64,000 nt of DNA from an uncultured Hyphomicrobiales bacterium (lineage in GTDB: Bacteria > Pseudomonadota > Alphaproteobacteria > Rhizobiales > Devosiaceae), in the NCBI GenBank assembly GCA_903828145.1, contig CAIKKY010000029.1, forward strand, positions 62,001-126,000, read 5' to 3'. The first letter of the stretch is position 1, and each line of letters starts with the position of its first letter. The notes beneath the pieces are model-generated. The model had not been told where the DNA came from. It worked only from the letters and a program-made list of their open reading frames with translations, and did no database searches. Below, piece by piece: positions 30,253 to 43,673 of the stretch. The translations under genes were made by a program, and so were the position numbers.

Positions 30253-31323
30253 TCAGGCGGCCTTGCCCGCCTTGTGGCGCCTGGCGGCGACACCGCGGGC
30301 GAGGTTTTCGAGCACGCTGACGGTCGTCGCCCAATCGATGCAGCCATCGGTGATCGACTGGCCATAGGTCAAGGGCTTGCCGGGTACGAGGTCCTGGCGG
30401 CCCGCGATGATATTGCTCTCGATCATCACGCCCATGATCCGGTGGTCCCCGCCGGCAATCTGGGCGGCGACATCGGCCATGACGAGCGGCTGGTTTTCCG
30501 GGTTTTTCGACGAATTGGCATGGCTCGCATCAATCATGATGGCCGGACGAATACCGGCCTTTTCCGATTCAGTCGCTGCCGCCGCAACGCTCTGGGCGTC
30601 GTAATTGGTGCTTTTGCCGCCGCGCAGAATGATATGACAGTCTTCATTGCCGGTGGTGGCCGCAATGGCGGCGTGGCCGGTTTTGGTGACGGCGAGGAAA
30701 TGGTGCGGGTGGCTCGATGATTTCACCGCATCAAGCGCGATCCGCACATTGCCATCGGTGCCGTTCTTGAACCCGATGGGGCAGGAGAGGCCCGAGGCGA
30801 GTTCGCGGTGAACCTGCGACTCGGTGGTGCGTGCGCCAATGGCGCCCCAGGCGACGAGATCGGCGAAATATTGCGGCGTGGTCATATCAAGAAACTCCGA
30901 CCCGGCGGGGAGCCCGAGATTGTTCACCTCGAGCAGGACCGAGCGGGCGAGCCGCAGGCCATTGTCGATGTCGAAGCTGCCATCGAGATTAGGGTCGTTG
31001 ATGAGCCCCTTCCAGCCCACGGTCGTGCGCGGCTTTTCAAAATAGACGCGCATGACGATTTCAAGATCAGCACCCAGCCGCTCGCGCAGGGGAGCGAGGC
31101 GGCGCGCATAATCGATGGCCGCTTTCGGGTCGTGGATGGAGCAGGGGCCGACCACCACCGCCAGCCGGTCGTCGTGGCCGTGCAGGATATTGTGCAGCGC
31201 ATGGCGCGCGGTCAGCACGGTTTTGGTGGCGGCGTCGGTGCGCGGAAACTCGCGAACAACCTCGTCAGGGGTGCGCAGTTCGCGCAATTCCTTGATGCGA
31301 AGGTCATCGGTTGATTTCAGCAT
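30253..31323 (-). CDS. aroG: 3-deoxy-7-phosphoheptulonate synthase (class I DAHP synthase)
   Basis: VVVGPCSIHDPKAAIDYA, FEKPRTTVGWKGLINDPNLDGS, GARTTESQVHRELASGLSCPIGFKNGTDG. Confidence 0.95.
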   Translation of the reverse strand: MLKSTDDLRIKELRELRTPDEVVREFPRTDAATKTVLTARHALHNILHGHDDRLAVVVGPCSIHDPKAAIDYARRLAPLRERLGADLEIVMRVYFEKPRTTVGWKGLINDPNLDGSFDIDNGLRLARSVLLEVNNLGLPAGSEFLDMTTPQYFADLVAWGAIGARTTESQVHRELASGLSCPIGFKNGTDGNVRIALDAVKSSSHPHHFLAVTKTGHAAIAATTGNEDCHIILRGGKSTNYDAQSVAAAATESEKAGIRPAIMIDASHANSSKNPENQPLVMADVAAQIAGGDHRIMGVMIESNIIAGRQDLVPGKPLTYGQSITDGCIDWATTVSVLENLARGVAARRHKAGKAA

Positions 31324-31360
31324 TTGTCTCTCCTCGGGTCTTTGGCTGGGCCCGGGCGAC

Positions 31361-31387
31361 AAAAAAGCCGCCAGGGGTCTGGCGGCG
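31361..31387 (-). terminator. Attenuator terminator in aroG leader
   Basis: On minus strand GCCGCCAGACCCCTGGCGGCTTTTTT between leader ORF and aroG. Confidence 0.85.
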
Positions 31388-31418
31388 TTTCGGGGTTTTT
31401 GTCGTTTGTTCGGTCAGA

Positions 31419-31493
31419 TCAAACGCGCCCCTCCGGCTGCCAGCGGCTTCCGTTGGTAAAATACCAATAATAATACGCGGCGCGGAGGTTCAT
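31419..31493 (-). CDS. Aromatic amino-acid leader peptide MNLRAAYYYWYFTNGSRWQPEGRV
   Basis: 24-codon ORF with consecutive Tyr-Tyr-Tyr-Trp-Tyr-Phe codons, immediately upstream of an intrinsic terminator and aroG. Confidence 0.85.
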   Translation of the reverse strand: MNLRAAYYYWYFTNGSRWQPEGRV

Positions 31494-31573
31494 GAGCAAA
31501 GCCTAGCCGAGCAATTTGGGCTTGTCACCCCTAAAGCGTGGCAAAGCGATTGACCAAAAAGGCTTAGGGCCCC

Positions 31574-32461
31574 ATGAGTTGGCCTATGTCCGCTTCAGCT
31601 CCCAAAAAGCGCAATGACCGCGCCGCCTATTTTCTCGTGCTGCCTTTCGTGGCGGTCTATGCGGTGCTGTTCGTCTATCCTACGGCGCAGATGCTGTGGT
31701 CGAGCCTCACCTCGCAGGGGCTGATTGTCGCCGGTGATTTCACCGGGGTGCAGAATTACGCCCGACTCCTCAGCGATCCGCGCCTCATGAAGGCGATTGT
31801 GAACACCACCCAGTTCGTTCTGATGACGGTTGTGCCGGGCACGCTCATCGGGCTCATGCTGGCGCTGATGGTCAACAGGCTTAAGGGCGTGGTGCAGGGC
31901 GTGGTGCTCGCGGTGCTGTTTTTACCCTATATGCTGCCCGTCACGACCGTGGTGCTGATCTGGAACTGGGTGATCTATGGGCCCTTCCAGCTCGTGTGGT
32001 TTGCCGTTATGCACCGCCCGCTCAATCTGGCGGTGCAATCGTGGATGCTGCTGCCGATTGTGGCGGTGCTGACCATCTGGTGGACAGCCGGGTTCAATGT
32101 GCTGATTCTTCTGGGCGGTCTCCGCTCGATCCCGCCTGATCTCTATGAGGCGGCGCGGATTGATGGGGCGGGACGCCGCGCCCAGTTCAGCGCCATTACC
32201 TGGCCGCTGATGCGCCCGTTTCTCCTCTTGGTGCTCACCATCCAGCTCATCTGGCAGATCAAGGTTTTCGATCAGGTCTATCTGATGGCCCAGGGCACAC
32301 GGTCGGACGTGTCGATCGTGCTGGTGCAGTACATTTATCTCCTGGCTTTCCAGAACGATAAGGGCGGCTATGCGGCCAGCGTGGCGGTGGCGCTGTTTGT
32401 TGTGGTGGTCGCGATTTCGCTCATGCAGGCCCAACTTCTGGCGCGGGGGCGGAAGTCATGA
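31574..32461 (+). CDS. Carbohydrate ABC transporter permease (MalF/UgpA type)
   Basis: Six TM segments, EAARIDGAGRRAQFSAITWPLMRP EAA loop. Confidence 0.85.
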   Translation: MSWPMSASAPKKRNDRAAYFLVLPFVAVYAVLFVYPTAQMLWSSLTSQGLIVAGDFTGVQNYARLLSDPRLMKAIVNTTQFVLMTVVPGTLIGLMLALMVNRLKGVVQGVVLAVLFLPYMLPVTTVVLIWNWVIYGPFQLVWFAVMHRPLNLAVQSWMLLPIVAVLTIWWTAGFNVLILLGGLRSIPPDLYEAARIDGAGRRAQFSAITWPLMRPFLLLVLTIQLIWQIKVFDQVYLMAQGTRSDVSIVLVQYIYLLAFQNDKGGYAASVAVALFVVVVAISLMQAQLLARGRKS

Positions 32462-43144: not shown

Positions 43145-43523
43145 GCCAGTTGACCGGGTGACCGCTGCGCCTTCGGGCGGGGAGGAAAGTCCGGGCTCCA
43201 TCGAAATACGGTGACGGCTAACGGCCGCCGGGGGCGACCCCAGGGAAAGTGCCACAGAAAATATACCGCCTGCCTTCGGGCCGGTAAGGTTGAAAAGGTG
43301 CGGTAAGAGCGCACCGCGGACCCGGCGACGGGGACGGCATGGCAAACCCCACCGGGAGCAAGACCAAATAGGGGCGGCGCGGGGGCAACCCCACCCGATT
43401 TCGAGGGAAGTCGTCCGGGTTGGTTGCATGAGGGTATCCGCAAGGGTGCTCCAAGATGAATGGTCACCACGTCTGCGTCTTCGGGCGCGGGCCCTACAGA
43501 ACCCGGCTTACAGGTCAACTGGC
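43145..43523 (+). ncRNA. rnpB: RNase P RNA, bacterial class A
   Basis: gaggaaagtccgggctcc, cacagaaaatataccgcc, ggtaaggttgaaaaggtgcggtaagagcgcaccg, ccccaccgggagcaagaccaaata; P1 gccagttgacc/ggtcaactggc closes the ends. Confidence 0.95.
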
Positions 43524-43673
43524 GACCACTTTTCCGGGCTGATGCCGCCAAAGTCCGCGCGCGCCACGCATACAGTCAACAGTATCTTAACGGGCGCGGG
43601 GGCACATAGGGCAGAGCCCCGAAGGGCAGTTCTGCGTGGTATTCGGCCGTAGCCGAAATGGAGTGGTCCCGAA

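Follow-up and report, generated by a model that had tools for sequence, protein, structure and literature searches.

Upstream of aroG, the class I DAHP synthase gene, the window (the whole analysed stretch of 64,000 nt) carries a short leader ORF with a run of aromatic codons, followed by an intrinsic terminator. These elements very probably form a ribosome-mediated transcription attenuator of aroG that would read the charging of tRNA-Trp, tRNA-Tyr and tRNA-Phe; we put the probability of this reading at about 0.93. It is based on anatomy, conservation, complementarity and geometry, from which we infer the transcription start at the ATG, ribosome stalling, readthrough and the dominant amino acid. 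A preliminary description of this DNA had proposed an attenuator here. Its translated aromatic leader and its mutually exclusive terminator and antiterminator before aroG gained strong comparative support; one of its two helices, its emphasis on Tyr and its additional Trp codon did not.

Anatomy of the aroG leader

The features, in the direction of transcription, are as follows.
31500–31528, minus strand: candidate promoter, with −35 GTGACA (31528–31523), a 17-nt spacer and −10 TAGGCT (31505–31500), from the sequence and family comparison
31419–31493, minus strand: leader ORF of 24 aa, MNLRAAYYYWYFTNGSRWQPEGRV, with a homologous leader at all inspected family aroG loci
31476–31487, minus strand: segment 1 (CTCCGCGCCGCG), able to pair with segment 2 according to folding and the pairing comparison
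31458–31475, minus strand: control codons 7–12 (Tyr Tyr Tyr Trp Tyr Phe), from the sequence and family comparison
31428–31443, minus strand: segment 2 (CTGGCAGCCGGAGGGG), the antiterminator strand, an RNA conserved across reading-frame changes
31392–31395, minus strand: CCCC, which pairs with GGGG to form the second antiterminator helix and in other lineages has changed together with segment 2
31379–31386, minus strand: segment 3 (GCCGCCAG), which serves as 5′ arm in the terminator and as 3′ arm in the antiterminator, from a stem scan and pairing comparison
31361–31374, minus strand: segment 4 (CTGGCGGC, 31374–31367) and the T run (31366–31361), the 3′ part of the intrinsic terminator
30253–31323, minus strand: aroG, class I DAHP synthase of 356 aa (TIGR00034), preceded by the ribosome-binding site GAGGAGAG

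The proposed mechanism has three states. When aromatic aminoacyl-tRNAs are ample, the ribosome would reach the UGA and cover most of segment 2, and the 3:4 terminator would form. If at least one of them ran low, the ribosome would stall at codons 7–12, its front edge stopping a few nucleotides before segment 2. This would let segments 2 and 3 pair before segment 4 has been transcribed, and RNA polymerase would read through into aroG. If the leader is not translated, 1:2 pairing would leave 3:4 free, giving termination by default.

The leader ORF runs from the ATG at 31493–31491 to the TGA ending at 31419; its sequence and position agree exactly with the earlier minus-strand reading. Its six aromatic codons are the sole run of at least five found when both strands of the window were scanned, and no run of six appeared in 30 first-order Markov simulations of the window. 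The terminator and the DAHP synthase gene behind it were also confirmed. The terminator is an 8-bp stem, GCCGCCAG-ACCC-CTGGCGGC (31386–31367), followed by six T, so that the whole spans 31386–31361. It lies 32 nt beyond the leader ORF and ends 37 nt before the aroG ATG. By itself it is unremarkable (0.7 expected per shuffle of the region). Judged from the sequences, the conjunction of leader and terminator, kept at every close aroG homologue examined, is far beyond chance.

The product of aroG scored 525 bits against TIGR00034 (aroFGH; cutoff 173). AroG is the first enzyme of aromatic amino acid synthesis, and the downstream gene thus fits the amino acids that would be sensed. On the other side of the leader, a divergent gene for a sugar-type ABC transporter permease starts at 31574. 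The same genome also encodes a class II DAHP synthase, closely 3′ of a glutathione-reductase-like gene, and no comparable leader was found at the class II gene. Elsewhere in the window there is a class A bacterial RNase P RNA (43146–43526, plus strand, 298 bits).

The −10-like element ends 6 nt before the leader ATG, and there is no Shine-Dalgarno sequence between them. In most of 30 family loci, GTGACA(AG) or TCGACA and a TA-rich −10 are conserved at similar distances from the leader ATG, and nearly all family loci keep the spacing between −10 and ATG approximately, likewise with no Shine-Dalgarno sequence in it; a scan for the strict sigma-70 consensus did not call this promoter. Given this conserved promoter-like element, which ends about 6 nt upstream of the ATG, transcription is predicted to start at or next to the ATG, and the leader mRNA is probably leaderless or nearly so. 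A leaderless attenuator mRNA has a precedent in S. meliloti rnTrpL (PMC7298713, PMC10117765).

Distribution among Proteobacteria

AroG homologues were present in 41 of 101 related genomes searched. We read the upstream DNA at 30 loci and at 11 more, the latter including a second copy in one genome. Leader and terminator precede every aroG copy inspected. The leaders are 23–27 aa long, their aromatic core nearly always contains W-Y-F (Trp-Tyr-Phe is invariant among the 30 loci), and the terminator lies shortly before aroG. The genome with two class I copies is a draft (G026), in which L189 (G026:C10) and L019 (G026:C16) have clearly different leaders; the two may be paralogues, or the assembly may be mixed.

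GTDB genomes were scanned with an alignment of AroG, which gave 80 named loci in Alpha-, Beta- and Gammaproteobacteria. Most of those with enough upstream DNA have an aromatic leader and a GGCGG(C/T)TTTTT terminator; a few (for example, L077, L092 and L109) show no such arrangement. The arrangement occurs in Devosia, Bradyrhizobium (MITVATSYFWYFSYDSSLAAGGSRSI), Mesorhizobium, Burkholderia (Burkholderia/Caballeronia leader MSAKFYFYFFWHLRPLADREG), Massilia, Xanthomonas (MNASCRSFYFWYYGFPMPLAEEGSRSP) and Rhodanobacter, and the Achromobacter aroG leader reads MKFSSPAFYFYFYGFLKPLAEEGTRSI. Since the arrangements are near-identical across the three classes, the leader seems to be a widespread switch that would turn on the pathway in response to a shortage of these amino acids. 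In Candidatus Burkholderia humilis (L086), about 200 nt upstream of aroG, the leader frame continues beyond the usual stop (MSANKFYFYFLLASQAAGGSRG...) and segments 2–4 remain, as if this attenuator were decaying.

A covariance model was built from 41 diverse leaders. Among 298 genomes of the order, about 40 had a strong full-length match, and among 399 genomes of the phylum roughly 50 did; no genome had more than one. All strong matches that were checked lie upstream of aroG, apart from two sets: those before pheS and pheA in enterobacteria, and those before tyrS within a single family of the order. The pheM-type (pheS) and pheL-type (pheA) leaders, which are known attenuators, were recovered at 36–44 bits. 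Weak matches (about 24–32 bits, mostly to the 3′ part of the model only) were set aside as ordinary terminators.

Two further leader types were seen in the order. In one family, L157 (501–619), L159 (501–609) and L160 (501–610) have Tyr-rich leaders (MIKTAATFVYFYYVTSIPAAA, MTATFVYFYYVTSIPAAT and MSASFVYFYYVTDIPAAA, respectively) and a GGCGGCTTTTT terminator directly upstream of a tyrS-like (tyrosyl-tRNA synthetase) gene, a candidate tyrS attenuator. In one family, L156 and L158 carry a divergent leader, MSITSVYASRFYWYRCSQRMRVRA, upstream of aroG. Its aromatic core is broken by Ala-Ser-Arg, and it scores only 45–49 bits to the model.

Searches of reference collections gave nothing comparable. 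Five leader peptides matched no family in Pfam or NCBIfam, and the leader DNA had no match in the plasmid collection. Against Rfam, whether at the gathering threshold or with E up to 5, the leader RNA gave chance matches only and no attenuator family, Trp_leader included.

Pairing and ribosome geometry

Beyond the aromatic core, it is the RNA and not the peptide that is conserved. L012 and L018 share CGGAAGCCGCTGGCAGCCGGAGGGG, which is read as GSRWQPEG in the former and as RKPLAAGG in the latter. The tail in the genus of the window is GSRWQPEGRV; L018 and L022 use a different frame for the same nucleotides, CCGCTGGCAGCCGGAGGGG, which gives PLAAGG. Since nucleotides are shared in different frames, what is conserved is a stretch of RNA that can pair with the 5′ arm of the terminator. 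Elsewhere the two strands have changed in concert: CGGCGG-A-GGCTATTGCG with CGCAAGCC-A-GCCGCC in the L026 group, GAGGCGG with CCGCCTC in L068, CCGGCGG with CCGCCGG in L105, and GGAATCGA with TCGATACC in L080.

Pairing of each leader with its own partner was compared with pairing with swapped partners at 42 non-redundant loci (5000 permutations). The leader tail (segment 2) paired better with its own spacer and arm, with a mean of −21.7 versus −20.0 kcal/mol (z −4.2, 0/5000). The 1:2 pairing gave z −3.3 (4/5000). Control regions after the terminator and before the ATG showed no own-versus-swapped signal. Neither did segment 2 with the 16-nt spacer alone at the same 42 loci (z 0.8), and the second helix is therefore supported jointly with the arm and by individual lineage cases, among them the joint replacement of CCCC and segment 2 as GGCTATTGCG with CGCAAGCC.

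Double-sided pair changes amounted to 22 cells for the terminator, against 0/500 shuffles, and to 10 for the antiterminator, against 3/500; pairing was far lower in slid controls. These counts are inflated by the relatedness of the loci, so we rely chiefly on the own-versus-swapped comparison, on the changes of reading frame and on the replacements in individual lineages. Many aligned pairs are invariant, and covariation proper thus rests on few positions. Of the two helices in the preliminary description, the GCTGGC:GCCAG pairing was right and is conserved. The second, GGGGCGCGTTT:AAACGCC, is partly present in some folds of the window leader, yet it is not conserved and was rejected; the second helix consists of GGGG:CCC(C) or of whatever pair takes its place in a given lineage.

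We modelled the ribosome on the 42 leaders with an assumed footprint, in which the front edge lies 12 nt past the first base of the A-site codon. When the last aromatic codon is occupied, segment 2 is free, and in all 42 leaders the antiterminator forms before segment 4 has been made. With the ribosome at the stop codon, the antiterminator forms in none and the terminator in 40. When full-length leaders were folded at equilibrium with the ribosome stalled, the terminator was still preferred in 34 of 42, the window's included; antitermination and readthrough must therefore be decided kinetically. According to the model and the swap test, antiterminator and terminator are mutually exclusive, and their placement fits the ribosome-mediated attenuators of amino acid genes.

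The preliminary description had also counted another Trp, codon 18, in the window leader. It turned out to be a product of the frame change in this lineage. A modelled ribosome held there covers segment 2, also taking into account that the edges in this model are offset by 1 nt, which does not affect the outcome. Trp18 as a control codon was rejected on geometry and conservation.

These results also bear on other explanations. The leader might chiefly give rise to a small RNA or peptide that acts in trans, like S. meliloti rnTrpL/peTrpL, with aroG control secondary. rnTrpL is a leaderless small mRNA ending in a terminator (PMC7298713, PMC10117765), and the layout here is the same. However, the frame changes show that the peptide tail is not conserved as protein. 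Besides, all close matches that were checked stand directly upstream of aroG and the other verified ones upstream of tyrS, pheS or pheA, the placement that control in cis predicts. We consider this explanation very unlikely. A ligand-binding riboswitch or a protein-binding attenuator, in which the ORF is incidental, would also be a structured RNA with a terminator. But aromatic codons are kept in every class, ribosome geometry suits the pairing and Rfam holds no match, which makes such a device very improbable. That the ORF, although kept across three classes, is an ordinary short gene for a functional aromatic-rich micropeptide with its own terminator and unrelated to aroG control is hardly credible, as peptide conservation is limited to the aromatic core, the remainder is RNA complementary to the terminator arm, and Pfam and NCBIfam contain no matching family.

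Amino acids probably sensed, related systems and significance

The aromatic core is present in leaders of all three classes. Every core in the family set and in the named alpha- and gammaproteobacterial sets contains Trp, Tyr and Phe. In the betaproteobacterial set, Phe and Tyr occur in every core, Trp in only 12 of 26, and Phe is dominant. The window core is Tyr-heavy (four Tyr), but this is a local variant, and in close relatives the corresponding positions are taken by Phe or Ser. Tyr had earlier been named as the main signal. This was not borne out: the conserved family core is Trp-Tyr-Phe, around which Tyr, Phe and Ser vary. As far as codon content can tell, sensing of all three amino acids with lineage-specific weighting is better supported than sensing of mainly Tyr.

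The nearest known system is aroR-aroF of C. glutamicum, in which a Phe-Tyr-Phe leader peptide and transcription attenuation precede a DAHP synthase gene (Neshat et al. 2014 via PMC11802643; PMC4046766). The likeness, an aromatic leader ORF and an attenuator before such a gene, is one of anatomy. Unlike the window leader, aroR is actinobacterial and has no Trp codon in its reported motif; Tyr availability is reported to have had no effect (PMC11802643, PMC4046766). In S. meliloti, the transcript of the trpL/rnTrpL attenuator of trpE(G) begins at the leader-ORF AUG, and both RNA and peptide act in trans (PMC7298713, PMC10117765). Like the probable aroG attenuator of the window, where the −10-like element ends 6 nt before the leader ATG, it is alphaproteobacterial, but trpL has Trp codons only and controls trpE(G). 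The E. coli leaders of pheST (pheM) and pheA (pheL) likewise combine a Phe-rich leader with a terminator; they belong to different genes and have GAGGCTTTTTT terminators rather than the GGCGGCTTTTTT of aroG leaders. The pheM and pheL attenuators respond essentially to Phe only. The DAHP synthases of E. coli, encoded by aroF, aroG and aroH, are repressed by the DNA-binding proteins TyrR and TrpR and not controlled by attenuation. Repressor control of these enzymes is also stated in PMC11802643. The enzyme family and the logic, DAHP supply matched to aromatic amino acids, are the same as here, but the E. coli genes use repressors.

No aroG leader in Proteobacteria was reported in the open-access literature that we searched; an earlier prediction may be contained in Vitreschak et al. 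2004, Panina et al. 2001 or a Xanthomonas transcriptome paper. We classify the mechanism as a known type, attenuation, and the aroG leader of Proteobacteria appears new and widespread.

Taken together, we lean towards one ancient, mostly leaderless attenuator that, in most non-enteric Proteobacteria with a class I DAHP synthase, would control its gene. The codon set of this attenuator would have been retuned by lineage: Trp, Tyr and Phe in Alphaproteobacteria and Xanthomonadales; in Betaproteobacteria, Phe and Tyr, Trp having often been lost. At the entry of the shikimate pathway the attenuator would correspond to TyrR/TrpR control in E. coli, and the terminated RNA could also act in trans. 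The element is absent from Rfam, Pfam and NCBIfam, and the covariance model of aroG leaders can be used for its annotation. The aroG leader is also a clean system for how one leader integrates several amino acid signals. The prediction is that Proteobacteria over a broad range, among them Bradyrhizobium, Mesorhizobium, Burkholderia and Xanthomonas, would gate entry into the shikimate pathway through two to three aromatic aminoacyl-tRNAs read by one leader.
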